This document shows, one piece after another, positions 3,283 through 35,428 of a stretch of 64,000 nt of DNA. The notes beneath the pieces were generated by a model. It had not been told where the DNA came from, did not search any database, and saw only the letters and a list, made by a program, of their open reading frames with translations. The translations under genes were made by a program, and so were the position numbers. How positions within the stretch are numbered: the stretch's first letter is position 1; the number at the start of each line of letters is the position of its first letter. The DNA is from Gammaproteobacteria bacterium (GTDB taxonomy: Bacteria > Pseudomonadota > Gammaproteobacteria > Steroidobacterales > Steroidobacteraceae): the NCBI GenBank assembly GCA_025359565.1, contig JANYFY010000014.1, positions 1-64,000 on the forward strand, read 5' to 3'.

Positions 3283-3338
3283 CTGCAGAGCGCACAAACC
3301 GTTAATTTTAGATACTTTGATTATCATGGGAGACATCT

Positions 3339-4475: not shown

Positions 4476-5900
4476 ATGCAAAACAAATTATTGATCAACG
4501 GTATCTTAGTGGCGGGTGAGGGTGTTACCGAGCACGTCCTGGACCCTGCGACCGGCAAAAAAATTGCTGACGTTCCTGAGGCCAGTAAAGCACAAGTCGA
4601 TGCCGCAGTGGCGGCAGCCGAAGCGGCAGCTCCTGGCTGGGCCGCAACTCCTCCTAAAGATCGGGCCACGCTGCTCCTTAAACTCGCGGATCGAATTGAA
4701 AACGAAGCCTCCGCATACGCCAAATTGGAATCTGACAATACAGGCAAACCTTTAACGGCAATGCTTAACGATGAGATCCCGGCGATTGCCGACGTGTTTC
4801 GTTTCTTTGCGGGTGCTGCGCGTACGCAACATGGCGCCTTGGCCGGTGAGTATCTCGCCGGGCACACGAGCATGGTTCGTCGTGATCCCGTGGGCGTAGT
4901 AGCTTCCATTGCTCCATGGAACTATCCCCTGATGATGGCAGCATGGAAATTAGCCCCGGCACTCGCGGCGGGCAATACTATTGTGTTAAAGCCTTCTGAA
5001 CAAACACCGCTGACAGCCTTAAAACTTGCCGAAGTTTTAAAAGAATTATTTCCGAAAGGTGTTGTGAATATTATTTGCGGTCGCGGCGAGAGCGTCGGTG
5101 CACCCCTGGTATCGCACCCACGCGTGCGTATGGTATCGCTGACCGGTGACATCTCGACGGGTCAAAAAATACTTGCAGCGGCAGCCAGTAACGTGAAACG
5201 CACGCATCTTGAGCTCGGCGGGAAGGCGCCAGTGATTGTATTTGATGATGCAGATTTGGCCGCGGTAGTGGCAGGCGTGCGTACCTTTGGCTTTTACAAT
5301 GCTGGTCAAGATTGTACGGCGGCCTGCCGAATTTATGCAGGTGCAAAAATTTACGACAAGCTGGTGGCCGATTTAAGCTCAGCGGTGCGCTCGCTTAAGG
5401 TGGGGCTACAAACCGATGACGGCGTAGAGATGGGCCCTTTGATTTCCGCCGAGCAACGCACTCGCGTGGCGGGATTTGTTGAGCGTGCGGCAGCCCTTAA
5501 GCATGTAGAAATTACCGCGGGTGGAAAAACACGTGCAGGCTCCGGATTTTTTTACGAGCCCACTCTCATCGCCGGTACCCGCCAATCGGATGAAATTGTG
5601 CAACGCGAAGTGTTCGGTCCGGTGGTCTCGGTCACACGCTTTACGGATGCCGATGACGCGGTGAGTTGGGCCAACGATTCCGAATACGGATTGGCCTCTT
5701 CAGTGTGGACTCAAGATATAGCCAAAGGCATGAGCGTGGCGGCACGATTGCAATACGGTTGTACTTGGATCAACACCCATTTCATGATCGTGAGCGAAAT
5801 GCCGCATGGCGGCTTTAAACGCTCAGGGTACGGCAAAGATTTGTCGGTGTATGCCCTCGAAGATTACACGGTGGCGAGACATGTGATGGTGAAACTATAG
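4476..5900 (+). CDS. patD: Gamma-aminobutyraldehyde dehydrogenase (PatD-like NAD-dependent aldehyde dehydrogenase)
   Basis: A 474-residue aldehyde dehydrogenase matching PatD/YdcW of E. coli along its length, including the start MQNKLLING, the [19 protein letters not shown] segment, the catalytic glutamate in ELGGKAPV, the nucleophilic cysteine in [10 protein letters not shown] and the ending [12 protein letters not shown]. PatD oxidises 4-aminobutyraldehyde to GABA in putrescine breakdown. Here it is the last gene of the N-demethylase operon (3 nt after the GcvT-like gene), so the natural substrate may be an N-methylated aminoaldehyde or 4-aminobutyraldehyde formed after demethylation. No putrescine transaminase lies beside it in the window. 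Confidence 0.88.
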
Positions 5901-9889: not shown

Positions 9890-11368
9890 GTGACGATAAA
9901 TTCCGACGAAGCGGTCGATCAAGACGCTGCACAATTAAAAGCCCTGGGTTATACCTCCCACTTCGAACGCACAATGTCGAAGTGGGAGAATTTTTCGCTA
10001 GGATTTACCTATCTTTCGCCGGTAGTCGGCGTTTACACCATTTTCGCGAGCGCGTTTGTCGCGGGAGGACCACCCATGTGGTGGACCTATCTAGGTGTGG
10101 GCTTAGGCCAGCTCATGGTGTGTCTGATATTCGGTGAGATCGTATCTCAGTTTCCCATCTCCGGCGGTCTGTACCCTTGGGCACGACGGCTCACCGGCAA
10201 ACGTTGGGCTTGGATGGCCGGATGGGTCTATGCCTGGGCTTTGTGTTGCACGATGGCGGGCGTTGCGACAGGGGTCGCGCCATTTCTGGCGCAATTATTT
10301 GGAGCTGAAAGCACGCCAATTCTCACTACTGTAATTGCGTTCGTGTTAATCGCCATCACGACTATACTGAATTTGAGTGGCACGCGATTATTGGCGAGGG
10401 TAGCGATGTTTGGCTTTATTTGCGAATTGGTGGGCGCCATTGTGGTGGGCGGCTATTTATTACTGTTCGCGCGTCATCAGCCCTTAAGTGTCTTATTGGA
10501 TACTAGCTATATACAGCATGGCAGCGGTAATTACTTACCTGCCTTTCTCGCCTCGGCACTCGCTGCCATGTTTTGCTACTACGGCTTTGAAGCCTGTGGT
10601 GACGTGGCGGAAGAGACGCCGGATGCGAGCCGCATGATCCCCAAGGCGATGCGTATGACGATTTATATCGGCGGCGCGGCGGCCTCGTGGGTGTGCTTAA
10701 GTTTCGTATTGTCGATATCCGATATCGGTGCGGTTATTTCCGGCAAAGACAAAGATCCGATTGTCACGCTCCTGCGAGCTGCGATGGGTGAAGTAGGTTT
10801 TCGGGCCGTCATTGTGGTGGTGCTAGTGTCTTTCATGTCTTGCTTATTGAGCTTACAAGCGGCGGCAAGCCGTTTGTTGTTTGCTTATGCTCGCGATCAA
10901 ATGATTTTTGGCAGCCAGTACTTAAGTCGTATGTCGCCGAAAACCAAGGTACCCGTCGTGGCGCTAGTGGTGATGGGCGCAATCCCTGCGCTCATCGCCC
11001 TCTCGGCGCTGTGGCTCCAAGATGCGATTAATACCATCATCAGCTTTGCCGCGATCGGTATTTATATTTCCTTCCAGATGATCGTGTTGGGGGCGCTCAT
11101 CGCGCGTGCCAAAGGGTGGCGTCCTGCGGGGCCTTTTACCCTAGGGGCTTGGGGCTGGACAGTCAATGTCATCGCACTGGCCTATGGAATTTTTGCCATC
11201 ATCAACATGGCGTGGCCGCGTAGTCCCAACGATCCCTGGTACAGCAATTACGGGATGATTGTGACTACCATTGGGGTGGTGGTATTGGGTGCGCTCTACA
11301 TGACAACTGCCCGGCCGTACGAACATGGCAACGCACCTGCGGGCGACGCGCATCGATTGCACGCGTAA
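9890..11368 (+). CDS. APC-family amino acid/amine permease
   Basis: A 492-residue inner-membrane transporter with about twelve hydrophobic segments. It starts at GTG 9890 behind AGGGCAAAGG, 15 nt after the TonB receptor stop. The N-terminal NFSLGFTYLSPVVGVYTIFA segment and the FEACGDVAEETPDASRMIPKAM stretch are typical of the APC group that includes GABA, choline-like and eukaryotic-type amine permeases (UGA4/BAT1-like). Most likely it takes up an amino acid or amine delivered to the periplasm by the adjacent receptor. It is convergent with the HisC-like gene 122 bp away; that spacer holds no recognised feature. Confidence 0.88.
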   Translation: MTINSDEAVDQDAAQLKALGYTSHFERTMSKWENFSLGFTYLSPVVGVYTIFASAFVAGGPPMWWTYLGVGLGQLMVCLIFGEIVSQFPISGGLYPWARRLTGKRWAWMAGWVYAWALCCTMAGVATGVAPFLAQLFGAESTPILTTVIAFVLIAITTILNLSGTRLLARVAMFGFICELVGAIVVGGYLLLFARHQPLSVLLDTSYIQHGSGNYLPAFLASALAAMFCYYGFEACGDVAEETPDASRMIPKAMRMTIYIGGAAASWVCLSFVLSISDIGAVISGKDKDPIVTLLRAAMGEVGFRAVIVVVLVSFMSCLLSLQAAASRLLFAYARDQMIFGSQYLSRMSPKTKVPVVALVVMGAIPALIALSALWLQDAINTIISFAAIGIYISFQMIVLGALIARAKGWRPAGPFTLGAWGWTVNVIALAYGIFAIINMAWPRSPNDPWYSNYGMIVTTIGVVVLGALYMTTARPYEHGNAPAGDAHRLHA

Positions 11369-11490: not shown

Positions 11491-12633
11491 TTACTGCCCG
11501 CCATGCATAACTTTCGCCAATGCCTCCAGAAAATGTTGGTTGTCCTCTCGCCGTCCGACCGTCACCCGTATGAATGTCTGAAATCCCGCCTCTAGCCACG
11601 GCTTCACTATGACGCCGTTTTGCATCAAAGCAGTGGCTACATTACTACTGGGCCGCCGGACATCAATAAACAGGAAATTACCCAGCGATGGCGCAATTCG
11701 CATTCCATACCCATGCATGGCCTCAAGCGCCACTAGTTGCCGCATCAGATCCGCTCTCTCGTACACGGTGGCGGATACGACCGCTTTTAAATGTTTCAAG
11801 TCGCGCAGCGCTGCGACAGCTGCGACTTGGGCGAAGGTATTAACGTTAAAGGGAGTTCGCACTCTATCTAAGAGTGAGGCGAAATCCGCATCCGATGCCA
11901 GGCCATACCCTATTCGCAATCCGGCGAGGCCATAGGCTTTGGACAGAGTTCGCAGCACAATCCAGGGTCGGGGCTGGCTTGATAACACTTTGAGACTGTC
12001 GGCATAATCGCCCCCTTCTGCATACTCGAAGTACGCCTCATCGATCACCAGCACCGCGTCGAGCGGACTCGCATCCACCAAAACTTGTAGCCCCACGTCA
12101 TTGAGTGCGCACCCGACCGGATTTGAAGGAGTGCTGAACATGACGAGTTTTACGGGTCGGGACAGCGCAGCACACCAGGCTGGTAAGTCATAGGCGAAAG
12201 CCGCGTTAACCGGAATTTTTTCGACGGTGGCGCCCATCATTAAAGGAAAAATTTCATGCAATCCGAACGAGGGTGCAAGCGTTAACACCCGATCACCCGG
12301 AACTAGTAGCGCCTTGCACAGCATCTCAATGATGTCTTCGGACCCATTGCCCAACACGATCCGCGATCTAGCTACTCCAGTGTTGCGTTCAATCTGCTCG
12401 CGCAGTGCCGTGCAGTTGGGGTCGGGATAGCGGTAAATGTCGCCCAGCGACTTAGCGAGTTCTACGGAAACAGCCGCGCTGGTACCAAACGGATTTTCAT
12501 TACTCGCAAGCTTGGTTACGCGCGTAAGTTGGTATCGGGCACGCGCTACCTCTTCGGAAATTCCTGCGTTGTATATCGGCAGCGAGCGCACTTCGGATCG
12601 GCATAGATCAAGTGCGCTCTTTTTTATCGCCAC
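11491..12633 (-). CDS. HisC-like PLP-dependent aminotransferase (histidinol-phosphate aminotransferase family)
   Basis: A 380-residue fold-type I aminotransferase: TRVTKLASNENPFGTS near residue 40, the VLGNGSEDII cofactor-phosphate region, FSTPSNPVGC, the VIDEAYFEY aspartate/tyrosine and the PLP lysine in RTLSKAYGLAGLRIGYGLA, with the C-terminal arginine region in FIRVTVGR. Sequence alone would name it hisC, but no other his gene is near. It is the last gene of a NCS1 permease-TonB receptor-aminotransferase set, starting 1 nt after the receptor stop, so a catabolic role on an imported imidazole or aromatic amino acid is more likely than histidine synthesis. The exact substrate is not determined. 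Confidence 0.85.
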   Translation of the reverse strand: MAIKKSALDLCRSEVRSLPIYNAGISEEVARARYQLTRVTKLASNENPFGTSAAVSVELAKSLGDIYRYPDPNCTALREQIERNTGVARSRIVLGNGSEDIIEMLCKALLVPGDRVLTLAPSFGLHEIFPLMMGATVEKIPVNAAFAYDLPAWCAALSRPVKLVMFSTPSNPVGCALNDVGLQVLVDASPLDAVLVIDEAYFEYAEGGDYADSLKVLSSQPRPWIVLRTLSKAYGLAGLRIGYGLASDADFASLLDRVRTPFNVNTFAQVAAVAALRDLKHLKAVVSATVYERADLMRQLVALEAMHGYGMRIAPSLGNFLFIDVRRPSSNVATALMQNGVIVKPWLEAGFQTFIRVTVGRREDNQHFLEALAKVMHGGQ

Positions 12634-12634
12634 C

Positions 12635-14950
12635 CTAAAACCGCATCATCGCAGACAAACCAATCGTGCGCGGCGTCAGTGTATAGCCGCGGTTGACGGT
12701 TTGTAAATTAGGCCTCTGAATGATGGCCTGTTCATTCAATAAGTTTTTGGCAAATAAGGATAATTCAATATCCCGAAATTGGGCACCCGCCGTGAGTGCT
12801 ACGACAGCATAAGACGGTCGATTGTAATCAGGATCGGCAATTCCGACTGTTCCGTGACTGCTGCCCGTATAGTTCCAGTCGGCCGTCGTGAACCCGGTAA
12901 CGCCTTCAGCAATCGGTGCGCTATAACGAGCAGAGACATCCGCGCTCACTCGGGGAACACCGGGGACGGCCTGGCCTTTAGTAATGCTGAGCAGCGGCAC
13001 ATCCGAGGTGAGCGCGGCATGCGTATAACCGCCCGACAGTCCGAGGGTCAGACTGCGAAGGGGCCGGTAGTGAATCTCGATTTCACTGCCATAACTCGCC
13101 GCCGTGCCGGCGTTCGTATTGTAGTCAAAGGTGCACGGCAGATTAATGTCAACCTGGATACCCTTCCAATCGATGTAAAAAACGTCACCATTAATCGAGA
13201 GCTTGCCATCCAGCAGTAGCGCCTTTGCGCCGGCCTCGTAATTCCACAATGAATCAGGGCCGTAAGCGGCAGGCTCGTTCGGGCAGAACGAGGGCAGAGG
13301 ACGATTCGGACCACCGAGACGGAACCCTTTGCTGGCGACCAAGTAAACGGAAGTGTCGTCTGTGACATCGTAGGTCAGGGCGAACTTAGGCGTTATGGGT
13401 TTGCCTCGGCTCTCGATCGCGATCGCCGGGGGAGAACCGATTGCAAAGAAGAAACCCCCGAGTCGCACCAAGGAAGTCTTCGCGTCCAAATAGCGCAGAC
13501 CGGCGGTAAGTCGCAGTGCCGGTGTCAGGTGATAAGTGGCTTCGCCGAACAACGCTGCTTGAGTCTCCGTGAATAGCTTGTTGTTAAGATATATGCTGTC
13601 GTTGGGGAAGACCGGTATAGGCGGAGGCGGGTTAGGCGGGTTGGACAACGCTTGGAGGAAAGCCGACGAGGTCAAAAATCCTGGGCCGTAAAGCGCTGTA
13701 AAGGCGTCATTAAGACCAGGAGCGATCTCAAAATCACGTGAGTCGAGCTTCTGATGCGAATAGAAAACTCCGGCGATCCATGTCATCGGCGCTCCCCCGG
13801 CCACGTAGGACTTTGATGCTAATCGCAGTTCCTGTGTGAACTGCTGGGTTCTTATCCGGTAGTGAACCGGAGAGGCGACTTGACCGATCAGCGCGCCATC
13901 CAAATTACCATCAAGGCCCGGGATAACTGCCGCATCAATCAGTGAACCGATAAAGCCCGAATTATAGGCGGTGCCATCGACCTGGCGATCAAAATCACGA
14001 TAGAAATAACTGGTCGACGAAGTCAGATCGGCCCACTTCAAATCATAGTCGATGCCTAAACTGGGAACGAATAGCGTATCAGCGCCCCACTCTCTAACTC
14101 TTTTCTGCTGCGATAATAAATCGGGAGCCCCGAGGTCCACAACATTGAGATCATCGCTTTTCTGGTACTGATACAAGATTGCAGGCTTGAAGATCAGTCC
14201 CTCCGCAGGCCGCCAGTCAAGCGCCACCCGAGCGGTGGTGGTCTGATCTCCATTGCTGCGTTTAGCGAGTAAACGCGTAGCGTCATCCGGCGAATAGTGG
14301 TCAATGTAGCCGCTGTTCTGCGTTACCGAGACCCCGGCTCGAAACCCAAGCTTATCGGTGATGATTGGCGCGTTAAAGATACCGCGTGCCGTGTAATTAA
14401 CACCTCCATGTTTGGTGGATGAGACATCCGTGTAAACCTCACCACTGTACTGAGCGAGGTTAATGGGATTGGTAATGTAGCGGATCGTACCGCCCTCTGA
14501 ACTCGCCCCATATAGAGTCCCTTGCGGCCCGCGCAATACCTCGACTCGCTGAATGTCAAAAAACCCGGGTTCCACTTGGCCCTGGGTATCGAGATTGCGC
14601 ACCGTCAGCGGTATATCGTCAAGGTACACCGATACCGTCGAGGAGCCTGCTGTTGAACTAATCCCGCGCAATTCAATATTTTGGTTACCTGCCCCACCCT
14701 GTGTGGAGAAAGACAGATTGGGTACTGAGCGTGTCAAATCTGCAATCTCGACGATGTGTTGATCAGCGATATCCTGGGCCGACATCACTGTGATGCTGGC
14801 CGCCACCTTGCGAGCATCTTCCGTATGCTTTTCGGCTGTCACGATGATCTCGTCAAGCTTATAGTCTGGCGCAGTTTGTGCGATCGTAGCGCTGCAAAAT
14901 CCAAACACTAATGGCATGAAAATACCCAACAGCAGCAGTTTTTTAAGCAT
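12635..14950 (-). CDS. TonB-dependent outer-membrane receptor
   Basis: A 771-residue receptor with a signal peptide (MLKKLLLLGIFMPLVFGF...), a TonB box in EIIVTAEKHTE, a plug domain with VEVLRGPQGTLYGASSEGG and a barrel ending in MMRF. It resembles the receptor at 7373-9874 in subfamily but is clearly a different paralogue. It lies 12 nt downstream of the NCS1 permease gene and 1 nt upstream of the HisC-like gene, which makes an outer-membrane/inner-membrane uptake pair with a dedicated aminotransferase. Regulation is probably by the HutC-type protein through sites upstream of the permease gene. Confidence 0.93.
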   Translation of the reverse strand: MLKKLLLLGIFMPLVFGFCSATIAQTAPDYKLDEIIVTAEKHTEDARKVAASITVMSAQDIADQHIVEIADLTRSVPNLSFSTQGGAGNQNIELRGISSTAGSSTVSVYLDDIPLTVRNLDTQGQVEPGFFDIQRVEVLRGPQGTLYGASSEGGTIRYITNPINLAQYSGEVYTDVSSTKHGGVNYTARGIFNAPIITDKLGFRAGVSVTQNSGYIDHYSPDDATRLLAKRSNGDQTTTARVALDWRPAEGLIFKPAILYQYQKSDDLNVVDLGAPDLLSQQKRVREWGADTLFVPSLGIDYDLKWADLTSSTSYFYRDFDRQVDGTAYNSGFIGSLIDAAVIPGLDGNLDGALIGQVASPVHYRIRTQQFTQELRLASKSYVAGGAPMTWIAGVFYSHQKLDSRDFEIAPGLNDAFTALYGPGFLTSSAFLQALSNPPNPPPPIPVFPNDSIYLNNKLFTETQAALFGEATYHLTPALRLTAGLRYLDAKTSLVRLGGFFFAIGSPPAIAIESRGKPITPKFALTYDVTDDTSVYLVASKGFRLGGPNRPLPSFCPNEPAAYGPDSLWNYEAGAKALLLDGKLSINGDVFYIDWKGIQVDINLPCTFDYNTNAGTAASYGSEIEIHYRPLRSLTLGLSGGYTHAALTSDVPLLSITKGQAVPGVPRVSADVSARYSAPIAEGVTGFTTADWNYTGSSHGTVGIADPDYNRPSYAVVALTAGAQFRDIELSLFAKNLLNEQAIIQRPNLQTVNRGYTLTPRTIGLSAMMRF

Positions 14951-14962
14951 TATTACACTCCA

Positions 14963-16345
14963 TCAAGCTAAATTTTGACGCGCGATTAAGCGCTTTTCGA
15001 ACTCGTAATATAGAACCGCCGGAACGATGAGCCCCGGTATCCAGGCCAGATCCGCACCGATGATTCGCTCAATCGAGCCTGAGTAAAACGAGAAACTCAT
15101 AAAGGGAATCTGAATCACAATACTCGTCAAGTAGGCTGCGATACCAGTCCACTTATACCGCCCGTAAATACCTGTCACAGTGAACATATCATTTACCGCG
15201 TAGCGGCCTTTACGCACCAGATAATAGTCGCAAAGATTGATGGCGCTCCAAGGCACCACCATATAGATCATTGCACTGAGCATATCGGCAAAGTATTCGT
15301 CGAATCGTTCCTGCGCGAGCAGCGCAATGAGCGTAGCAATCGCTATGAGTACCAGCATCAACAAAAATTTTAGCCAAAGATTACTGCGACTGGGTCGATG
15401 CAATCCTGTAAACATCGTCATTGTTGACATGTAGGCGCTATATAAATTCATCACATTGCCTTCAAGAATTCCGATAATAATTAGTAGTCGAATGAACGGG
15501 GCGCCACTGCCGAACAGATTAGCAAGTCCCGTACCTGGATCTTTTGAAATCGCGGGGTATGACACGGCGAGATATGCGCCGAAAATCATGATCGACGTAG
15601 CGCCAATGAAGTTGCCGAGTCCCGTAAACCAGAAAGTCTTCCAGGTTGAAGTATTCGCCGGGAGGTAACGCGAATAATCGGCTACGTAAGGAGCAAAACT
15701 TAAGGACCACGCCGCCGCCTGCGTAAGTGTCAACAAAAATGCCGCGCTTTTAAAAGAAGCGCTAGGAGCGAGCACCATGGTCGCATGCGTCGAAGGACTC
15801 ATAAGCAACAGTGCAGTCGCGGCAACAAAAAGGGCTGCCGATAGCACCGAGAGCAGTACGCCCATTCGGTGAATCAATTCATAGCCCATGAACGCGATGA
15901 CGAGGGTCACTAGTCCAAACACAACAAGCACACCGGCATTGCCAAAGGGCAAAAACGCCTTGAGAGGCTCGCGCAGCACAATGGCATTCGCGGTCGTAAA
16001 TAACGTAAAGGTGGCGACCACCGCAATCAGGGGGAGCGCGGCGCCTAGCACTCCGAACTGGGCGCGAGTTTGCACCATTTGAGGAATTCCAAGGTGTGGG
16101 CCTTGAGTGGAATGGGCTGCCATAAATATAGTGCCAATCACATTCCCAACTATGACCGCCAACGCAGTCCAGCCGAAACTTAAGCCCGCAGCGACTCCCA
16201 GTTTACCGATGGTCAAGCACAATATGGACAGGTTGATGCTGAGCCAAATCGTAAAAAGCCGCAGTGGTGTACCGTAGCGCTGGGAGTCTGGCACTCGATC
16301 TATGCCGTGCTGCTCGACGGTCAATGGAGCGTGATCGATACTCAC
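14963..16345 (-). CDS. NCS1-family permease (purine/cytosine/hydantoin-type)
   Basis: A 460-residue transporter with about twelve membrane segments of the nucleobase-cation-symport-1 family. The N-terminal PLRLFTIWLSINLSI segment, the GPHLGIPQMVQTRAQFG stretch in TM3 and the AINLCDYYLVRKGRY loop near residue 380 are characteristic. Known members import cytosine, purines, allantoin, hydantoins or related small N-heterocycles with Na+ or H+. As the first gene of a three-gene set with a TonB receptor and a HisC-like transaminase, and just downstream of HutC-type operator-like repeats, it probably imports an imidazole- or other N-containing ring compound. That substrate class is an inference. Confidence 0.9.
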   Translation of the reverse strand: MSIDHAPLTVEQHGIDRVPDSQRYGTPLRLFTIWLSINLSILCLTIGKLGVAAGLSFGWTALAVIVGNVIGTIFMAAHSTQGPHLGIPQMVQTRAQFGVLGAALPLIAVVATFTLFTTANAIVLREPLKAFLPFGNAGVLVVFGLVTLVIAFMGYELIHRMGVLLSVLSAALFVAATALLLMSPSTHATMVLAPSASFKSAAFLLTLTQAAAWSLSFAPYVADYSRYLPANTSTWKTFWFTGLGNFIGATSIMIFGAYLAVSYPAISKDPGTGLANLFGSGAPFIRLLIIIGILEGNVMNLYSAYMSTMTMFTGLHRPSRSNLWLKFLLMLVLIAIATLIALLAQERFDEYFADMLSAMIYMVVPWSAINLCDYYLVRKGRYAVNDMFTVTGIYGRYKWTGIAAYLTSIVIQIPFMSFSFYSGSIERIIGADLAWIPGLIVPAVLYYEFEKRLIARQNLA

Positions 16346-16417
16346 GCGCCTGCCCCAACCCAGCTATTCTCTAGCGTATTTGCTGATGCAGATCCCATAG
16401 TTGTTAGCGATTCCCTA

Positions 16418-16437
16418 TTGTATGTACTTGTATATAC
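16418..16437. promoter_or_regulatory. Tandem HutC-like operator half-palindromes
   Basis: Two back-to-back 10-bp units, TTGTATGTAC (16418-16427) and TTGTATATAC (16428-16437), occupy the spacer between the HutC-like regulator gene and the NCS1 permease gene. Each contains TGTA-N2-TAC, which is the core of the TGTA-N2-TACA site bound by HutC in pseudomonads and enterics. The second contains the perfect palindrome GTATATAC (16430-16437). The neighbouring regulator belongs to that same family. Binding is inferred and has not been shown. Confidence 0.6.
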
Positions 16438-16502
16438 CACTAAGTTGATCCCTAAGCAACTTGATGGCCGTGCCTGATCTTAAGGTCTCCCCTTAACATT
16501 TA

Positions 16503-17243
16503 CTATCGAATGGGTGGCTCCGATAACTTGTAACGGTTGTCTAAACTATAACGAGACCCTGGATAGATAAAAATACTCTTCGTCGCAGGCACCGAATTTA
16601 CCCAGGTCAATCGGGTCATGCGCAAACATGCTTCGGCGTGGTTAATACCTAGCAGCTTACACATACGTACGTCTGGCCGAATGGCGTACACAGCGTGGGC
16701 GACCTCAGTGGCGGACGCGATATTTTGCAGGTACCGAGTTGTCGTGAGTGACGAGAAATCTTGGCTCAGATAGCGCGGGGCAAATACCGGTGTCACAAAT
16801 CGCTCCTCGAGCTGAACGGCAACGCTGTCTTCAAAGCGCACAATCACTGAGTGAAATAATTTTGCCCCCTTCCTTACGTCAAAGATGGCTGCCAGCTCCG
16901 GATCCGCGTGTACAACTTCCAACTTAACGATCTGCGCGGAGTGCGCATGACCGCGAGCTTCGATGTCTTCAGCAATATCCCTTATTTCAATGAGAGGCGA
17001 CCGTGGCCGTGGGGTCGCCACAAAGGTGCCGACGCCCTGTACCCGTGTCACTAGCCCTTTGGAGAACAATTCGCGCAACGCGCGATGTACCGTCATTCGC
17101 GACACACCGAGCATCAACACAAAATCCTGCTCAGACGGGAGGCGAGCTCCGTCCACCCACTCACCGCTCTTCACCCGCGCAAGGATGTGTTGTTTTACAC
17201 GTTCGTAAAGCGGCACAGGCTCTTTGCCACGGTTCTGAAGCAT
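16503..17243 (-). CDS. HutC-type GntR-family transcriptional regulator
   Basis: A 246-residue repressor. Residues 10-80 form the GntR winged helix (PLYERVKQHILARVKSGEW, LPSEQDFVLMLGVSRMTVHRALREL, TRVQGVGTFVA). Residues about 95-246 form the UTRA ligand domain with EIRDIAEDIEARGH, LFHSVIVRFEDSVAVQLEERFV and a C-terminal PGSRYSLDNRYK that closely match HutC. HutC responds to urocanate in histidine-using bacteria, but no hutH, hutU or hutI gene is in the window. The gene follows the tautomerase gene by 9 nt and precedes the permease-receptor-aminotransferase set, with operator-like repeats in between. The inducer may be an imidazole-acrylate-like or aryl-acrylate-like pathway intermediate. Confidence 0.9.
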   Translation of the reverse strand: MLQNRGKEPVPLYERVKQHILARVKSGEWVDGARLPSEQDFVLMLGVSRMTVHRALRELFSKGLVTRVQGVGTFVATPRPRSPLIEIRDIAEDIEARGHAHSAQIVKLEVVHADPELAAIFDVRKGAKLFHSVIVRFEDSVAVQLEERFVTPVFAPRYLSQDFSSLTTTRYLQNIASATEVAHAVYAIRPDVRMCKLLGINHAEACLRMTRLTWVNSVPATKSIFIYPGSRYSLDNRYKLSEPPIR

Positions 17244-17252
17244 AGCGCGACT

Positions 17253-17447
17253 CTAAGCCGTAAGACGCTTAGTCCACAACGTACCGCCCGTGGACCAACG
17301 GGCACGAGGCACGTCGCGCACTATAATGTTGACATCTTCAGGCACGCAACCTAATAGCCGACAGGTGGCGTCTGTCAACGCCTGGACGTATGCCTGCACT
17401 TGATCGTCGGTACGGCCCGCAAACATGTCGACTTGAATTAAAGGCAT
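17253..17447 (-). CDS. 4-oxalocrotonate tautomerase-family protein
   Basis: A 64-residue small tautomerase. Proline 2 directly after the start methionine (MPLIQVDMFAGRTDDQ) is the catalytic base of the family, and the conserved arginine in the middle (IIVRDVPRARW) is present. Length is normal. Such enzymes isomerise 2-hydroxymuconate-type enols to alpha,beta-unsaturated ketoacids after ring cleavage. Here it sits between an SDR/extradiol dioxygenase pair and the HutC-like regulator, which fits a meta-cleavage-like branch. The exact substrate is unknown. Confidence 0.87.
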   Translation of the reverse strand: MPLIQVDMFAGRTDDQVQAYVQALTDATCRLLGCVPEDVNIIVRDVPRARWSTGGTLWTKRLTA

Positions 17448-17491
17448 AAATTTTTAAATCCACTCTAGAAAAAATTTGTCTGATATTTTGC

Positions 17492-18283
17492 TTACGGGTA
17501 CGGACCCGCAGTCGCATTATTGCCGCCATCCACCGGCAAATTCGCACCCGTCACGTAACTGGCGTGCTCGGAGGCGAGAAATAACACACAGCGCGCTACC
17601 TCCGCAGGCTGCGCCAGGCGGCGCATGGGAATGCCAGAAGCAAGTTCTCGCAAATTACTCTTAAGGTCCCCACCACGCTCCGCCAATATAGCATCCACCA
17701 TTTGCGTATGAATCTCGCCGGGACAAACGGAGTTCACTCGTACGCCATCGCGTGCATGATCTAAAGCCATGCAACGCGTAATTTGAATGACGGCACCCTT
17801 GCTCGCGCAATAGGCCACATGATTAGGCTCACCATTTAAACCCCATTCCGATGCGACATTTACGATAGCGCCGCCCCCGACGCCTTTCATGTGCTTAACC
17901 GCCGCACGGCTCAAATAGAATAAAGCATTCACATTCACCGCCATAGTGTCTAGCCATTGCGCATCGCTAGTTGCAAGCGCATCAGCGGTGTACAGAATAC
18001 CCGCATTGTTGATTAATACATCGAGTCCACCCAGTCGTTGAATGGTTTCCCGTATTAACGACTCACAAGCACCGGGCGCGCGCAAATCCGCAGCAATAAA
18101 ATCAGCCTGACCCCCCGCAGCGCGAATTGCGCCCGCCACAGCCTGCCCCCGTGCTTGGTCACGACCAGACACCATGACACCGGCGCCCGCCTCTGAGAAT
18201 ACGTGCGCACAAGCCTCACCGATACCACTGGTTGATCCTGTGACTAGTACCCGCTTGCCGTCGAATTTTATATTGTGACCCAT
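17492..18283 (-). CDS. Short-chain dehydrogenase/reductase
   Basis: A 263-residue classical SDR: the nucleotide-binding TGSTSGIG near residue 17, the NNAG motif, the active-site serine in VNVASEWG and YxxxK in YCASKGAV, and a C-terminal substrate loop. It reads as an NAD(P)-dependent alcohol/ketone or dihydrodiol dehydrogenase. Its ATG overlaps the stop of the dioxygenase gene by one base (TAATG around 18281-18285), so the two are translationally coupled. In this setting it could form the catechol-like substrate of the dioxygenase or oxidise a side-chain alcohol. Confidence 0.88.
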   Translation of the reverse strand: MGHNIKFDGKRVLVTGSTSGIGEACAHVFSEAGAGVMVSGRDQARGQAVAGAIRAAGGQADFIAADLRAPGACESLIRETIQRLGGLDVLINNAGILYTADALATSDAQWLDTMAVNVNALFYLSRAAVKHMKGVGGGAIVNVASEWGLNGEPNHVAYCASKGAVIQITRCMALDHARDGVRVNSVCPGEIHTQMVDAILAERGGDLKSNLRELASGIPMRRLAQPAEVARCVLFLASEHASYVTGANLPVDGGNNATAGPYP

Positions 18284-19083
18284 TAACCCACACCGAATCT
18301 AAAACTCGAGACCGTCATACCGCCCATCACATTATTCTCATGATAATAACAAGTCCCCACTTCATCTTCCGCAGCGCCCACCGCTACCATCAGCGGAATA
18401 AAATGATCTTCTTGCGGATGACATAAGCGCGCCGCCGGAGCTAGAGTCCAATGCGCCAGCCGCTGCAACCGTTCCGCAGGATTAGAACTCACCAAGGTTT
18501 GCTGCAACCATGCATCAAATGCCATCGAAGGTGCTTGAGCCGCCGCGCCCATTGCACGCAAATTGTGATAGCTCAACCCGCTACCGACAATCAGCACTCC
18601 TTCATCGCGCAATGGAGCCAACGCACGACCGAGCGCCATATGAGCCAGCGGATCGTAGCCGCGTTGCAAAGATACTTGCACCACAGGAACATTCGCCTGA
18701 GGGTACATCACCACCAAGGGAGTAAAAGTTCCATGGTCAAACCCACGCTTAGGGTCTAGCTTGCTAGGAAGACCCGCCGCTTGAATAAGAGAAAAGACTT
18801 CGCGAGCCAGTGTGGGCGAACCCGGTGCATCATAAGTAATGTGGTAAGTGTGCTCCGGAAAACCGTAATAATCGTAAATCATGCCGGGCCTATCATTCGA
18901 CGAGACACTAAAACCCGCTTCCTCCCAATGACCCGAGATCATCAACACCGATTTGATCGGCGCGGCGATCTGCCGAGGAATATCCTGCAAAGACTTCTCC
19001 AATCCTTGTAAGTTGCGACGCGCTTCGGGCATGTACGGCCACGGACCACCGCCATGCGATATGAAATAGGTTGGTAGTTTCAT
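18283..19083 (-). CDS. Class III extradiol ring-cleavage dioxygenase (DODA/LigB family)
   Basis: A 266-residue protein of the 4,5-DOPA-extradiol-dioxygenase-like branch. Metal-binding and catalytic histidines are visible in ISHGGGPW (near residue 10), MISGHWEE (near 50), FDHGTFTPL (near 115) and HPQEDHFIPL (near 225), as in the family. Members use Fe(II) or Zn(II) and O2 to open catechol rings at the meta position; YgiD of E. coli opens L-DOPA. It begins a minus-strand unit with an SDR and a tautomerase and is divergent from the trimethylamine-dehydrogenase-like gene across 94 bp. An aromatic substrate is therefore likely. Confidence 0.88.
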   Translation of the reverse strand: MKLPTYFISHGGGPWPYMPEARRNLQGLEKSLQDIPRQIAAPIKSVLMISGHWEEAGFSVSSNDRPGMIYDYYGFPEHTYHITYDAPGSPTLAREVFSLIQAAGLPSKLDPKRGFDHGTFTPLVVMYPQANVPVVQVSLQRGYDPLAHMALGRALAPLRDEGVLIVGSGLSYHNLRAMGAAAQAPSMAFDAWLQQTLVSSNPAERLQRLAHWTLAPAARLCHPQEDHFIPLMVAVGAAEDEVGTCYYHENNVMGGMTVSSFRFGVG

Positions 19084-19177
19084 CGACTTGAGCTTACCCT
19101 ATATACTGCCCCATAGAGCGACGCATAGAATGCCAGCCACCTAGCCGATCGACGGCACTTACAGCGGAGTTGGTATC

Positions 19178-21382
19178 ATGCCTCGCAATCCAAAACATGA
19201 CGTGTTATTTGAGCCCCTACAAATAGGCCCTAAAAAAACCCGCAATCGGTTCTGGCAAACTTCCCACTGCGCGGGTCCGGGCTCAGAGCGCCCCGGCGCA
19301 CAAGCTCATCTTCGCGGCATGAAAGCGGAAGGAGGCTGGGGCGTAGTATTCACCGAATTCTGTTCAATCCATCCGGAGGCCGACGAATATCCCTACACGT
19401 CAGCTCGCATTTGGGACGAGGGCGATATCATCAACTTAGGCTACATGTGCGATGTCGCGCATAGCCACGGAAGTCTAGCGGGTATTCAATTGTGGTATAG
19501 CGGCGGCAACGCGCCCTCCCTAGAATCTCGAGAAGTCGGCCGATCACCCAGCCAATGGCTATCCCCCCTGTTCGCCACCCGTTCAGTGTACGGCTATGAA
19601 ATGGATGACTTAGACATCCGCACCGTCATTCGCATGTATATCGAGGCCGGCAAACGCGCCGAGCAAGCGGGATTTGATCTTTTAGAAGTTTCCGCCGGCG
19701 ACGACACGCTCCCCATTCAATTTCTCGAACCGCGCTTTAATCGACGCACCGATCAATATGGCGGCGACTTCCAAAATCGAGCGCGATTTTTTCTTGAATT
19801 AATGCAATCACTCAAGCGTGAATTAGGCAATCGCTGCGGCATCACTATTCGCTTCGAGATGGATACCTTACACGGCCCCGAAGGTGTTGAGGCCCACGAA
19901 GATGGTGTCCGCTTGCTGGAATTATTTCGTAACGAAGGCGTCGTCGATGCAGTGGCCTTGAAAATCGGCGATTATGCTGAATGGGGCGAAGATGCAGGCG
20001 TGTCAAGATTTCGCAAATCCGGCTGGATGACTCCCTTCATCAAACAAGGTAAATCCATACTAGGTCCGGGTATTCCCGTGGTCGGCAATGGGCGCCTGAC
20101 GAACCCCGACGATATGGTGGATCTCATTCACAAGGGGGTGCTCGATATTATCGGCGCCGCACGGCCTTCGATTGCAGATCCTTTTCTCCCCACCAAAATA
20201 TCTGAAGGTCGCCTCAGTGACATCCGCGAATGCATCGGCTGCAATATCTGCGTCTCCAAGTTTCAGCAAGGGGGCCAGATCATGTGCACACAGAACGCGA
20301 CTGTTAACGAAGAATATCGCCGTGGGTGGCATCCTGAAAAATTTACGAAAACCACACAACCCTGCTCGGTACTCGTTGTCGGTGGCGGTCCCTCAGGCAT
20401 GGAGTGCGCACGCATCTTAGGCGAGCGAGGGTATACCGTGCATTTGCGTGAAGCAACCTCAGAACTTGGCGGTCATTGGAAGATGGTGGCAACACTACCG
20501 CGACTTGCCGAATGGGGCCGCGTCATTACTTATCGACAAGCGCAACTCGCCAAACTTAAAAAGAGCGTTGAAGTTCACTTAAGTGTCGGCAAGATGAGCG
20601 CCGATGAGGTACTCAACTACGGCGCCGATAAAGTGGTCATTGCTACCGGTGCACATTGGAGCGCCGACGGTCGCGGCCCGAATTTCGGCCCCATTCCCGG
20701 CGCAGATGCTGCACATCCCCACGTACTCACACCGTTCCAGATCGTGCAGGGCAAGCCGGTGCCCGGTCAGCGTGTGCTCATACTCGACGGCGATGGTCAT
20801 TTCATGGGGATCACCTTAGCGGAAATGATGGCCAATCTAGGCAAGCAAGTCACCTATGTGTGCGACGCTGCGGATATTGCCGAGTACGGTAATTTCACGA
20901 TGGAGTCAGGCAACAACAAGCGTCTGATGTTCGAGAAGGGCATCAAGACCTACTGCAATCACTGGGTTGATAAAATCGAACCCGGTAAAGTACGCTTAAG
21001 TTATCTCTATAAATATGGTCCTGACCTCTTGGCTCCCACTTCCGGGGCGATACCCCGCAAGGACAACGGTGGTGAGTTTGATCTAAATATTGATGCCGTC
21101 ATTCTCGTCACCTCGCGCTACTCTGATGACATGCTGTGGCGCGAACTCAAAACACATAAGGACGAGTGGGCCTCGCACGGAGTCTACGATGTGTTTCGCA
21201 TCGGCGATTGCAAGGCCCCCGCGCAATTGAACCAAGTCATTTGGGATGGACATCGTTTAGCCCGAGAATTTGATAGCCCCCACCCCGCACATCCACTGCC
21301 CTGGATTCGCGAACGCCAGCTTTGGGGTGGAAAAACCGTGCCGAAACTGGGTGATTCGCGCCCGAACGTCGAGGCAGGTTAA
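19178..21382 (+). CDS. Trimethylamine/dimethylamine dehydrogenase-like iron-sulfur flavoprotein, altered active site
   Basis: A 734-residue enzyme matching trimethylamine dehydrogenase over its full length, from the KHDVLFEPLQIGPK opening through an FMN TIM barrel, a 4Fe-4S motif (CIGCNICVSKF... MCTQNA) and the ADP- and FAD-like domains (VLVVGGGPSGMECARIL). Cys31 corresponds to the cysteine that binds 6-S-cysteinyl FMN. Against my memory of the Methylophilus enzyme, the aromatic substrate cage keeps one tryptophan (AEWGEDAG) but has Phe61 for Tyr60 and Phe for Trp355, and the catalytic Tyr169/His172 positions are Ser172/Asp175. It is probably an N-demethylase or amine oxidase for a different amine. 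GGAG lies about 9 nt before the ATG. It is divergent from the dioxygenase operon and followed by a GABA-type permease. Confidence 0.88.
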   Translation: MPRNPKHDVLFEPLQIGPKKTRNRFWQTSHCAGPGSERPGAQAHLRGMKAEGGWGVVFTEFCSIHPEADEYPYTSARIWDEGDIINLGYMCDVAHSHGSLAGIQLWYSGGNAPSLESREVGRSPSQWLSPLFATRSVYGYEMDDLDIRTVIRMYIEAGKRAEQAGFDLLEVSAGDDTLPIQFLEPRFNRRTDQYGGDFQNRARFFLELMQSLKRELGNRCGITIRFEMDTLHGPEGVEAHEDGVRLLELFRNEGVVDAVALKIGDYAEWGEDAGVSRFRKSGWMTPFIKQGKSILGPGIPVVGNGRLTNPDDMVDLIHKGVLDIIGAARPSIADPFLPTKISEGRLSDIRECIGCNICVSKFQQGGQIMCTQNATVNEEYRRGWHPEKFTKTTQPCSVLVVGGGPSGMECARILGERGYTVHLREATSELGGHWKMVATLPRLAEWGRVITYRQAQLAKLKKSVEVHLSVGKMSADEVLNYGADKVVIATGAHWSADGRGPNFGPIPGADAAHPHVLTPFQIVQGKPVPGQRVLILDGDGHFMGITLAEMMANLGKQVTYVCDAADIAEYGNFTMESGNNKRLMFEKGIKTYCNHWVDKIEPGKVRLSYLYKYGPDLLAPTSGAIPRKDNGGEFDLNIDAVILVTSRYSDDMLWRELKTHKDEWASHGVYDVFRIGDCKAPAQLNQVIWDGHRLAREFDSPHPAHPLPWIRERQLWGGKTVPKLGDSRPNVEAG

Positions 21383-21412
21383 CATGGCGCATTGCTCACA
21401 AAGGTACTCTTC

Positions 21413-22831
21413 ATGACCCCATTAAACCCCACGGCCGACGCACCAGCGATTAACGAACTCAGCAAGTCGCTGCAGAAACGCCACTTAACCATGATATCGA
21501 TTGGCGGTATTATCGGCGCTGGTCTGTTTGTAGGTAGTAGTACATCCATCATCGCGGGCGGCCCCGCAGCCTTCATCAGCTACGGCATCACTGGCCTGTT
21601 GATACTCCTCATCATGCGTATGTTGGGAGAGATGGCCACCGCCCTGCCCTCAGTGCGCTCATTTACCGAGTTTGCACGGGCAGGCTTAGGCGATGGCGCG
21701 GGCTTTGTGATCGGCTGGCTGTATTGGTATTTCTGGGTCTTAGTGGTGCCGGTGGAGGCCATTGCAGGCGCGAAGATTATTCAAGGTTGGCTCCCCGGCT
21801 TGTCATTGATGGAAATTGGATTGGTTTTAATGAGCGTCATGACTGCGGTTAATCTCATGTCAACGCGCTCATACGCCGAATTTGAATTCTGGTTTGCGTC
21901 CATCAAGGTCGCCGCCATTCTCGCCTTTATTGTTATCTCAGCATCTTACGCTTTCGGCTGGACCTCGCCACAGGGCGCGACCTTCGGCAATTTGGTGAAC
22001 CATGGCGGATTTACGCCTCACGGTTGGATTGCCGTCCTCGCCGCAGTACCTACGGTATTTTTTGCCATGACGGGCGCGGAAATTACCACGATTGCAGCAG
22101 CTGAGTCGGAATTTCCGGGTCGCGCAATCGCCAAAATGAGCAGTGCAGTCATCTTACGAATTTTAATTTTTTATGTAGTGTCTATTTTCCTTATAGCCTC
22201 GGTAGTTCCTTGGGATGCGGTCCGCTCCGGTGAATCTCCGTTCACACTGGCATTAAATACCATGCACATCCGCGCTGCCGGTACGATCATGAGTTTCATT
22301 ATCCTTACTGCGGTATTGTCCTGTCTCAATTCGGCCTTCTATGTCAGTTCACGCGTTTTATTTGTATTGGCGGCCCGCGGCGACGCACCAAAAGCTTTGG
22401 TCAAGCTCAACGCTCGACGCGTTCCGGTAGCCTCAGTGATGATGGGTGCAATCGCTGGATTTTTGGGTATTTTTGCAGCGACCCAAGCGCCGCAAAAGGT
22501 CTTCGACTTCCTAGTCAGTTCTTCGGGCGCACTCATTGTCTATATCTATATGGCCATTGCCATGGCACAAATAAAATTGCGCCGGCGTCGCGAGCAAAAT
22601 GCTGATCCACAACCTGCGGTGATGATGTGGGGATTTCCGTATTTAAGCTATGCAGCCATCGCCGCGATGGTGGCGGTACTCATTGCCATGGCCGTAACAC
22701 CTAACATGCAGCAAGATTTCTGGTTTACCTGCATTACATTGGCGGTCGCAGTCGTCGCCTATTTCGTGGTGAACAGCCAACGATCCCGGTCACCAACCCT
22801 TAGCGCACCGCAAGGCCGCCCCAATTCGTAA
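21413..22831 (+). CDS. GABA/aromatic amino acid-type permease (AAT family)
   Basis: About 472 residues with twelve likely membrane helices. The segment HLTMISIGGIIGAGLFVGSS at the first helix and MRMLGEMATALPSVRSFTEFA are hallmarks of the AAT group including GabP and AroP; the closest feel is GabP. The ATG at 21413, with AAGG about 8 nt upstream, is preferred to an in-frame TTG at 21392. It lies 30 nt after the dehydrogenase-like gene and probably imports its amine or amino-acid substrate. The 3' end overlaps an open frame that encodes the missing N-terminus of the following potassium channel. Confidence 0.9.
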   Translation: MTPLNPTADAPAINELSKSLQKRHLTMISIGGIIGAGLFVGSSTSIIAGGPAAFISYGITGLLILLIMRMLGEMATALPSVRSFTEFARAGLGDGAGFVIGWLYWYFWVLVVPVEAIAGAKIIQGWLPGLSLMEIGLVLMSVMTAVNLMSTRSYAEFEFWFASIKVAAILAFIVISASYAFGWTSPQGATFGNLVNHGGFTPHGWIAVLAAVPTVFFAMTGAEITTIAAAESEFPGRAIAKMSSAVILRILIFYVVSIFLIASVVPWDAVRSGESPFTLALNTMHIRAAGTIMSFIILTAVLSCLNSAFYVSSRVLFVLAARGDAPKALVKLNARRVPVASVMMGAIAGFLGIFAATQAPQKVFDFLVSSSGALIVYIYMAIAMAQIKLRRRREQNADPQPAVMMWGFPYLSYAAIAAMVAVLIAMAVTPNMQQDFWFTCITLAVAVVAYFVVNSQRSRSPTLSAPQGRPNS

Positions 22832-22925: not shown

Positions 22926-23699
22926 ATGACCGTGAGTTGGCCGCAGCTGTTTAGCACTATTGCGGCTTTTTTCTTAGTTTTCGATGTGATTTTCGGGTTG
23001 TTGTACTACTTCGTTCCGGGTTGCATCGCAAACGTCAATCCAGCAGGTTTCGTCGGGAATTTTTTCTTCAGTGTGGAAACCTTTGCGACTGTAGGCTACG
23101 GCGATATGCATCCGCAAACGCTCTACGGACACCTAGTCGCCATGATCGAAATATTCATGGGGCTCATGTCGCTCGCATTGATTACCGGCATTATGTTCGC
23201 GCGCTTTTCGCGGCCTAAAGCCCGTTTTTTGTTTGCGAAACACGCCGTGGTTCGACCCATCGAAGGTAAGCGGACCCTTATGTTTCGGGCGGCCAACGCC
23301 CGTCAGAATATTGTGCAAGAAGCGACGGCACAACTACGCATGATGCGCAATGAAGTCACTAGCGAAGGATTTCGGATTCGGCGAATTATCGATCTTCCCC
23401 TGATTCGTTCCCAGCATCCTATTTTTATTTTAGGTTGGAATATCATGCATATTGTTGATGACGCTAGCCCCTTAAAAAACGCAACTGCCGAGACTTTGCA
23501 TCAATCCAGAACTACTTTTATCTTAAGCCTAGCTGGAACAGACGAGACCACCGGTCAAATGCTAATGGCGAGAAGCGAATATACCAGCGACGCGATTCGC
23601 TGGAATGAGACTTTTCGCGATCTCCTGGAAGTTGCTGAGGATGGGACCTTGCATCTGGACTACGGCAAGTTTCACGATGTAGAGCCTCTAGCCCCCTAA
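22926..23699 (+). CDS. Inward-rectifier potassium channel, KirBac type (true start probably upstream)
   Basis: 257 residues from the only ATG. It has TM1 (LFSTIAAFFLVFDVIFGLLYY), a pore helix and selectivity filter FATVGYGD, TM2 (LVAMIEIFMGLMSLALITGIMFARFS) and a C-terminal immunoglobulin-like cytoplasmic domain, as in KirBac1.1/3.1. Full-length relatives have about 35-45 extra N-terminal residues including the slide helix. Here that sequence is encoded in frame upstream (see 22773-22925) but lacks a standard start codon. The channel would pass K+ across the inner membrane; its link to the amine cluster is not obvious. Confidence 0.85.
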   Translation: MTVSWPQLFSTIAAFFLVFDVIFGLLYYFVPGCIANVNPAGFVGNFFFSVETFATVGYGDMHPQTLYGHLVAMIEIFMGLMSLALITGIMFARFSRPKARFLFAKHAVVRPIEGKRTLMFRAANARQNIVQEATAQLRMMRNEVTSEGFRIRRIIDLPLIRSQHPIFILGWNIMHIVDDASPLKNATAETLHQSRTTFILSLAGTDETTGQMLMARSEYTSDAIRWNETFRDLLEVAEDGTLHLDYGKFHDVEPLAP

Positions 23700-25191: not shown

Positions 25192-27018
25192 TTACTCTTT
25201 TCCTTCAGCGCCACTAGTGAGCAGTTCCACAATCGTCGCGCGAGCGCCAACTCCGTGTATCGGCAAAATGAGCACATCCCCCGCGCGCGCCCAATCTAGC
25301 GCCATGCGAGCGGCCTCTACTTCGCTGTTGGCTGACGCCAGAGCCGCATCCGGCACACCGAATCGCCGCAACGCCTCATGAAGGATGAGCGGTATTTCCC
25401 CAGGGGTACGTCCCCGCAGCTGAGTTTCATTTTCCTTCACCACAACAAGATGTGGTTCGAATTCAGCGGCCACTTTTGCCAATGCCGCAAGGTCAGCGTC
25501 CTGACGATTACCCGCATGGCCCAGAATTAATCCCAGCCGACCCCCGACACGCAGTCCTTGAGCGACCGCTAGCAAGCCGCGCAGACCAGCAGGATTGTGT
25601 GCATAATCGACAATAACGTGCACCCCACGCACCTCGAAACGCATCATGCGACCTAAATTGTCTTGCACATCGGCGCCAAAATAGGCGAAAACCGTGGCAA
25701 TAGTCGTAGGTGCAATACCAAGCTCGGCAGCCGCCAACGCGGCAGCCGCAAGGTTAGCGATGTTGTAGCTCGCAACCCCTGCAACACTAAGAGGCATTGC
25801 AGCAACGACCCCTAAATCATGCTCTATTCCGCGAGAGCCAGGCACAGTGCCTAAACTTAAGCGCAGCCGTCCACTACGTACTCCACAAGTCGCGCCACCA
25901 CCCATCGCTCCACCGCGATCCCGATGCGCTTGTAAAGTCGGGTGATCCGCGTCAAGCGCAAACCAGGCGAGGCGTCCCTTAGCACCAAATCGTTGCGTAA
26001 GTTCAGTGGCTTTCACGCTCAGAAGCGCATCATCAGCATTGAGTACCAACAAACCGGTGATGCCGAGTAGCGCCGCAACCGATAACTTCACATCCGCAAG
26101 CGCACTGAGATCATCGATTCCATACTCGCCGAAGTGATCCGCGGTTACATTAGTTACAATCGCAACTTGCGCGCGTGAGGCGGCGATGCCACGCCGCAGA
26201 ATGCCGCCGCGTGCTACCTCGAGAATAGCGATCGCGGTGTGCACATCTCGAAGTACCATGCGCGTACCCACGGGACCCGCATAATCGCCGTAGACAATGA
26301 CCTGATCACCCACCCAAACGCCTTCCGTAGAATTATACCCAGCACGCCAACCCTGGCCTTTTGCACAAGCTGCTAGCAAACGCACGGTGGTTGTTTTGCC
26401 ATTCGAGCCCGTCACCAACGCAATCGGTATATCAAACAACTCAGCCCACGCAATTTCAGCACTGTAGGGCAAGTCATTTAATGAGTAACTACGCCCGCCC
26501 ACTCCGGCACCCAGCGTCAAGGTGGTCTCATCTAGAACGTAAGATAGTTGATGCGTAACAGCCGCCTCAACTAGCTCAAGTAATCGAGGATTGGCTTCAC
26601 TCTTAGATAAGCGCGCGAACCGCGCCATCGCAGCAAACTCTGCCAACACGGGAAGATCATCCGAAACTCTTTCCGGAGACTCTTCGAGCGCCGCACGGCG
26701 CCATGCTATTTCCAAACCGCTCCAATGTTTTGCGTCGCTCTCTATCAAAGTCGCGCATACCGCCCACTCATTGATTTCGGTCGCCGTAAAAAGTTGGTCA
26801 AGCGGGGCCGCTAGTGCGAACGAAGCGCCGCCCGCATGTAACCGAACAGCCATCGGCAGGTCCGGCCAACCAAGTTCTAGTCGCACCCGTTGAACACGCG
26901 CGCGCCAACCGTCACTAAGCGAGTCTTTCGCAGCTAATTCCGCTAACTCCAATACAGCGCCCGGATGGTCGAAAAATAAGTTGCTGCCCGTGAGGCGCCG
27001 CGAGTCCTCGAAGGGCAC
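25192..27018 (-). CDS. Mur-ligase-like protein of the cyanophycin locus
   Basis: 608 residues. Residues about 1-190 have no motif I recognise. From about residue 200 there is a Mur-ligase ATP site (VTGSNGKTTTVRLLA), then GGILRRG, VTNVTADH and VLNADD motifs, and a C-terminal glutamate-ligase domain with VIVDYAHNP, LGHAGNRQD and VVVKENETQLRGRTPGEIP. It is related to the C-terminal half of CphA but lacks the ATP-grasp domain. It sits 11 nt downstream of cphA, an arrangement I recall from other proteobacterial cyanophycin loci. It may be an accessory ligase adding an amino acid during cyanophycin synthesis; the activity is unproven. Confidence 0.85.
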   Translation of the reverse strand: MPFEDSRRLTGSNLFFDHPGAVLELAELAAKDSLSDGWRARVQRVRLELGWPDLPMAVRLHAGGASFALAAPLDQLFTATEINEWAVCATLIESDAKHWSGLEIAWRRAALEESPERVSDDLPVLAEFAAMARFARLSKSEANPRLLELVEAAVTHQLSYVLDETTLTLGAGVGGRSYSLNDLPYSAEIAWAELFDIPIALVTGSNGKTTTVRLLAACAKGQGWRAGYNSTEGVWVGDQVIVYGDYAGPVGTRMVLRDVHTAIAILEVARGGILRRGIAASRAQVAIVTNVTADHFGEYGIDDLSALADVKLSVAALLGITGLLVLNADDALLSVKATELTQRFGAKGRLAWFALDADHPTLQAHRDRGGAMGGGATCGVRSGRLRLSLGTVPGSRGIEHDLGVVAAMPLSVAGVASYNIANLAAAALAAAELGIAPTTIATVFAYFGADVQDNLGRMMRFEVRGVHVIVDYAHNPAGLRGLLAVAQGLRVGGRLGLILGHAGNRQDADLAALAKVAAEFEPHLVVVKENETQLRGRTPGEIPLILHEALRRFGVPDAALASANSEVEAARMALDWARAGDVLILPIHGVGARATIVELLTSGAEGKE

Positions 27019-27029
27019 CGTTATGGCGT

Positions 27030-29849: not shown

Positions 29850-29861
29850 ATTTCTCCCGTC

Positions 29862-34916: not shown

Positions 34917-35039
34917 CGGAAACTCCACGCCATACACGCCCGTATGACTCGAAAGCCATAAATTTCCGCAAGGCAAAAGGTGGGCGTAACTCCGTGTGTA
35001 GAGCACACGGATTCCGCCCGATGCCCTCCGCATCGCGGT

Positions 35040-35262: not shown

Positions 35263-35428
35263 ATAGTGCGAGGCACAGCGACCCACTGTCAAGCGTTAAC
35301 GTTCAAACAAACAACGCACGGCCAGCCGGTTGACCTGATTCAGGGTGACCCGTTACGATAGCCGCTAAGACATGATTTAGAGATGTACTGCTCGTCGCAT
35401 AGAATTAATCACAACAAGGATCAACGCA

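Follow-up and report, generated by a model that had tools for sequence, protein, structure and literature searches.

What does a HutC-type repressor regulate when it lies next to uptake, transaminase and ring-cleavage genes and has no hut genes beside it? The question arises because annotation names such proteins 'histidine utilization repressor' by score alone, and one curated equivalog model spans the hut-linked HutCs together with at least one non-hut clade. The stretch of DNA analyzed here, 64 kb in length and referred to as the window, contains a regulator of this kind within a block of seven minus-strand genes at 11491-19083, and we ask which genes it controls, whether it still responds to urocanate, and how far the surrounding genes belong with it.

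Organization of the locus

ORF calls together with Pfam/NCBIfam matches, which are good at the family level, confirm all of the genes, their order and their strands as given for 11491-19083 in a first-pass annotation made from the letters alone. In the order of transcription, with a 157-bp gap between hutC and ncs1, they are as follows.

18283-19083 (-), ligB: LigB / 4,5-DOPA extradiol dioxygenase-type enzyme (PF02900)
17492-18283 (-), sdr: SDR dehydrogenase (PF13561/PF00106)
17253-17447 (-), tautomerase: 4-oxalocrotonate tautomerase-type protein (PF01361, 39.6 bits; PRK00745, 77.7 bits, just below the cut-off of 80)
16503-17243 (-), hutC: hutC-like GntR/UTRA repressor (TIGR02018, 261.3 bits, cut-off 220)
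14963-16345 (-), ncs1: NCS1-family permease that heads the operator-bearing operon (PF02133)
12635-14950 (-), tbdt: TonB-dependent receptor (PF00593 and PF07715)
11491-12633 (-), hisC: HisC-like (PRK05166-type) aminotransferase (PF00155; TIGR01141, 288 bits, cut-off 276.6)

Within ligB-sdr-tautomerase-hutC and within ncs1-tbdt-hisC the genes touch or are separated by at most 44 bp, and these short gaps, set against the 157 bp that separate one set from the other, make two transcription units likely. The G+C content of the block is similar to that of the rest of the window, and its composition gives no sign of recent import. The first-pass annotation had suggested conserved synteny as a check on its reading, and this did not materialize: a scan of the genome contigs with NCS1 and phylum-wide searches with NCS1, HutC, the TMADH-like protein and LigB returned pieces of the block and no relative carrying the whole of it. 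It should be noted that base 1 of the window is the start of contig C12, a contig end.

Several other features of the window were recorded. A cobalamin riboswitch (35032-35269, minus strand; Rfam RF00174, 86 bits) lies upstream of an ORF for a BtuB-like TonB receptor (33051-35033, minus strand). ORF reading points to two cyanophycin-synthetase-like genes with a cyanophycinase-like gene at 25192-30725 (minus strand) and to apparent nitrile hydratase alpha (with a CTLCSC motif), beta and accessory genes at 35960-37402 (plus strand), and Pfam matches (IRK_C, Ion_trans_2) mark an inward-rectifier-type potassium channel at 22926-23699 (plus strand).

The regulator is a second HutC

Searches of the genome and its relatives revealed a second HutC in the same genome (C6:38875-39567), 44% identical to the window HutC. 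It lies in a complete hut locus on contig C6 (hutI/F/C/U/H/G), whose gene names were taken from ORFs, gene order and the MIO motif of hutH and are backed by close matches in other hut loci. Since this canonical locus has its own HutC, the window regulator is a paralogue. No hut catabolic gene is linked to it anywhere in the 64 kb; hence the earlier description of a system 'without hut genes' is right for the window and wrong for the genome. In addition, although the window HutC exceeds the TIGR02018 cut-off, it reaches 224 bits against PRK14999, below the cut-off of 424.

In the tree the window HutC falls together with non-hut HutCs from Sinorhizobium meliloti pSymA and five genomes of family f67; support for this grouping is 98/82, or 100/98 once long branches are removed. 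Genes linked to the regulator in this sister clade are hisD-like, Zn-dehydrogenase and SDR genes, and three of the four loci that were read also have a PRK05166-type hisC nearby. A dihydroxypropanesulfonate reading of the Sinorhizobium-type hisD cluster, which gives a HisD model match, was considered and not adopted. Relatives whose regulator controls a linked hut operon, which had been named as evidence that would speak against the first-pass reading, do exist, but they are paralogues outside the closest clade of the window HutC. Further HutC paralogues with no hut genes nearby occur in the order, so that hut-free copies are not rare; at L036, L037, L038, L040, L042 and L043 there are no hut genes within ~10 kb, and some of these paralogue loci keep good HutC-type sites, for example at L043:12664, ahead of a TonB receptor.

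A tandem operator in the ncs1 promoter

Published HutC sites are centred on TGTA-N2-TACA (PMC12977541), and the HutC subfamily is known to have additional, weaker boxes at a distance of 7-12 nt (PMC4494728). Operators were scored with the 14-mer CTTGTATATACAAG, written from sites seen in hut loci, and two features resulted.

16417-16440 (no strand assigned): tandem HutC-type operator ATTGTATGTACTTGTATATACCAC, two 14-mers in 10-bp register, with the best 14-mer score in the window
19099-19106 (no strand assigned): weak HutC-like core CTATATAC in the divergent ligB/TMADH promoter, one mismatch to GTATATAC, not counted as an operator

The best 14-mer in all 64 kb (12/14, at 16427) lies inside the 157-bp ncs1 promoter (16346-16502), and exactly 10 bp from it is a second one (10/14), giving a pair sum of 22, a window score that is not fully independent as the 14-mer consensus and the 10-bp register were picked after the ncs1 site had been seen. 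The exact TGTA-N2-TACA is absent from the tandem site, the matches being to the extended consensus. The comparison across other loci is independent in this respect. Eleven canonical hut loci gave pair scores of 18-23; among non-hut HutCs, the sister clade gave 19-21 and seven loci with other paralogues gave 17-19, and the range for 16 unrelated loci was 15-18. A similar double operator is found at locus L124, between an SDR gene and hisC. Across the 3.14-Mb genome, the ncs1 operator is one of three places with no more than two mismatches, a total no greater than chance since the reversed-pattern control gives four, while the chance expectation for one to fall within the 157-bp promoter is ~2e-4. 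A tandem operator in this position that scores like real hut operators makes direct HutC-type control of ncs1-tbdt-hisC a well-supported prediction.

No comparable operator was found in the ligB/TMADH promoter (19084-19177), where the best 14-mer is 7/14; hence the data do not support control of the ring-cleavage half, and the candidate operator there was dropped as a weak core only. Scoring likewise returned no operator ahead of the TMADH-like gene, nor any in the promoters of the plus strand that were covered (5.9-11.5 kb). For co-regulation of the two halves, as first envisaged, there is thus support on the side of ncs1-tbdt-hisC, with its double operator, and none on the side of ligB.

A changed position in the effector pocket

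In NagR, Arg133 and Arg135 are ligands of the effector phosphate (PMC4333415). In our alignment the position equivalent to Arg135 is His in all 42 hut-linked HutCs and also in nine other non-hut HutC paralogues, is Asn in five of the six members of the sister non-hut clade, and is Arg136 in the window HutC, so that a single pocket position sets the hut-linked HutCs apart from it. The window protein also has Asp at the position equivalent to NagR Ser88, where the usual residue is Asn, and Thr in place of the usual Pro at its own position 168. Because the His is invariant in the hut-linked proteins, we propose that the effector of the window HutC is probably something other than urocanate, although Arg at a single pocket position is on its own no proof of a changed effector. 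The earlier suggestion of urocanate or an imidazole as the effector therefore appears unlikely.

The uptake-transaminase operon

The window NCS1 permease clades with Burkholderia-type and Pantoea proteins and with two proteins of family f21, and the hut-linked NCS1 proteins form a separate clade (100/100) at ~35% identity. The NCS1 protein of Pseudomonas hut operons carries urocanate. A role of the window NCS1 as a hut-type urocanate transporter is not supported by the tree.

The window HisC scores 514 bits against PRK05166, below the cut-off of 540, and its relatives (~44%) occur in HutC clusters of the Sinorhizobium type and also in clusters which, by ORF reading, resemble Rieske demethylase systems. 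A common origin of the HisC-HutC pairing was considered and set aside: in the HisC tree the window protein does not fall specifically with HutC-linked HisCs. HisG and HisB were not found in the genome, an absence to be read against an assembly that is 98.35% complete and in which one missing operon would account for both; HisG is present in a same-genus genome. If the absence is real the window HisC is not biosynthetic, and a catabolic role is probable. Histidine auxotrophy of the organism is possible.

These data bear on the reading that ncs1-tbdt-hisC is an extra histidine/urocanate uptake operon, induced by urocanate and controlled by the genome's own HutC, by the paralogue or by both. Indeed, the retained HutC-type DNA recognition means that the own HutC, and thus urocanate, could act on the same operator, and the double operator is as strong as that of the genome's own, complete hut locus. 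Hut-linked NCS1 permeases are known in other genomes, and uptake of histidine would pay in a genome lacking HisG and HisB. However, the window NCS1 belongs to a different clade, the His-to-Arg change in the pocket speaks against a plain urocanate sensor, and the regulator's operon includes ring-cleavage genes. We regard this reading as unlikely, while still giving it real weight.

Ring-cleavage genes and the amine module

The solved structures nearest to the window LigB are DOPA dioxygenases (172 bits). Its relatives at 58-67% identity have unrelated surroundings, with no SDR, tautomerase or paralogous HutC linked to them; one of these relatives lies 12 kb from a hut locus. None of eight LigB neighbourhoods holds a conserved LigB-SDR-tautomerase unit.

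Divergent from ligB, on the plus strand, are a TMADH-like gene and then a GABA-type permease; with the plus-strand genes on the other side of the block, the amine-related features are the following.

657-4472 (+): dimethylamine-monooxygenase-type demethylation genes (DmmA, reductase, HODM alpha, GcvT-like; PF22289/PF22290, PF11927, PF01571; NF041259)
4476-5900 (+): aminobutyraldehyde-dehydrogenase-type ALDH (PRK13473, 803 bits, above 615), with a 63% relative in a Shinella module
9890-11368 (+): APC permease of the amine module, with a 57% relative beside ALDH and a TMADH-like gene in Shinella
19178-21382 (+): TMADH-like amine dehydrogenase with an altered active site (750 bits to TMADH 1djn)
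21392-22831 (+): GABA-type APC permease (PF00324; GABAperm, 462 bits, below the cut-off of 678)

In TMADH numbering the active site of the TMADH-like protein has F60, S169, D172 and F355, so that the Y60/W264/W355 bowl and the Y169/H172/D267 triad of TMADH become F/W/F and S/D/D. A 63% relative in Shinella has a near-identical pattern (F60, T169, D172, F355) and is accompanied by the ALDH (63%) and APC (57%) relatives, by Fe-S/ETF genes and by a sigma54 activator; neither HutC nor ligB was found in the 30 kb read around that module. A TMADH paralogue with canonical active-site residues is present in the same genome, beside ETF-like genes (G000:C9, locus L173, 4881-7073, minus strand). The Shinella module without HutC or ligB, together with this paralogue, indicates that the amine module is separable from the HutC block. 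Assignment of the TMADH-like gene as a histamine dehydrogenase was rejected (497 bits as against 750 for TMADH, with differing residues).

That the TMADH-like gene belongs to an amine pathway, as first suggested, is plausible and draws support from its residues and from the Shinella amine module. The particular compounds put forward with it, N-methylated tyramine or hordenine, methylhistidine and hercynine, are guesses: the genes fix no aromatic- or imidazole-specific enzyme, and conserved synteny for one pathway is lacking. A literature search for hordenine breakdown or for clusters that combine TMADH with HODM gave nothing usable. A broader reading is that everything here forms a single pathway acting on an N-methylated amine or amino acid of aromatic or imidazole type, with uptake, HODM/TMADH-type demethylation or deamination, ALDH, transaminase and ring cleavage all under the window HutC. 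DmmA, reductase, HODM, GcvT, ALDH, APC and TMADH-like genes do lie with the HutC block within 22.8 kb, and the flavin Cys, the 4Fe-4S Cys and an aromatic bowl are retained in the TMADH-like protein, a combination that one would expect if its substrate were a methylated amine. Nevertheless, the Shinella module does without the HutC block in the stretch read, the promoters on the amine side carry no operator, and with a canonical-residue TMADH on C9 dimethylamine alone could be the Dmm substrate, all of which leaves a single pathway improbable. That two unrelated operons merely adjoin a HutC paralogue whose control extends to just one of the two, or to a gene elsewhere, agrees with the scattered contexts of the LigB relatives and with the lack of conserved synteny but sits poorly with the operon-like gene spacing and with a tandem operator exactly in the promoter adjoining the regulator gene, and it appears equally improbable.

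A hypothetical mechanism for the locus

We somewhat favour, at slightly better than even confidence, a catabolic locus in which a second, neofunctionalised HutC-family repressor controls ncs1-tbdt-hisC, with ring cleavage adjoining and the amine module separable. Specifically, we propose that the window HutC is made from the ligB-sdr-tautomerase-hutC operon and that its effector-free form binds the tandem operator and would shut off ncs1-tbdt-hisC. The proteins of the latter operon would carry an amino acid or related compound across the outer and inner membranes and then transaminate it, and an anionic catabolite other than urocanate would release the repressor. The extradiol dioxygenase, SDR and tautomerase would probably cleave a catechol ring that arises from the imported compound and process it further, and the surrounding TMADH-like, ALDH and permease genes would make up a separable amine-oxidation module. 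Substrate assignments in this scheme follow family names only. The sequence itself establishes the gene order, the paralogy and clade of the regulator, the operator, the pocket change and the lack of HisG and HisB in the assembly; repression, a changed effector, transport, the direction of the pathway and any catechol or amine substrate are deductions from these.

What we consider real, and somewhat unusual, is the regulatory locus itself, in which a second HutC-type repressor, its effector probably changed, stands over an uptake-transaminase operon and beside an extradiol operon. The stronger proposal, that HutC lost urocanate sensing through the His-to-Arg change and was recruited to an undescribed catechol-type amine or amino acid catabolism, next to a new TMADH-like subfamily with a remodelled active site, is doubtful. 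If confirmed, the favoured mechanism would offer a direct means of reassigning HutC paralogues and a test case for a repressor that changes its effector with the operator retained, and the inducer would be a handle on the substrate of the catabolic locus.

Comparison with known systems

The window regulator is like HutC (TIGR02018; Pseudomonas HutC) in its GntR and UTRA architecture, its equivalog score and its HutC-type tandem operator. It differs from Pseudomonas HutC in having no linked hut genes and an Arg instead of His in the effector pocket, and from the usual HutC at position 53, in the recognition helix, where His replaces Asn. Pseudomonas-type hut operons with NCS1 likewise have HutC and an NCS1 permease within a few kb of one another, but in contrast to the window locus they contain the hut enzymes and their NCS1 is of the other clade. 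The Sinorhizobium pSymA (CP140933)/family f67 clade has in common with the window locus the lack of hut genes, the nearby PRK05166-type hisC (in those three of four loci) and the tandem operators, and differs from it in having no ligB, tautomerase, NCS1 or TonB receptor. By sequence, the window LigB shares with 4,5-DOPA extradiol dioxygenase/YgiD (8in2, 2pw6) membership of the LigB-type class III extradiol family, but at 149.4 bits it does not reach the cut-off of 233 of the curated 4,5-DOPA dioxygenase model. Finally, compared with trimethylamine dehydrogenase (PDB 1djn), the TMADH-like protein keeps the flavinylated Cys30, the 4Fe-4S cysteines, W264, D267, W105 and S74, and departs from it by Y60F, W355F, Y169S and H172D.
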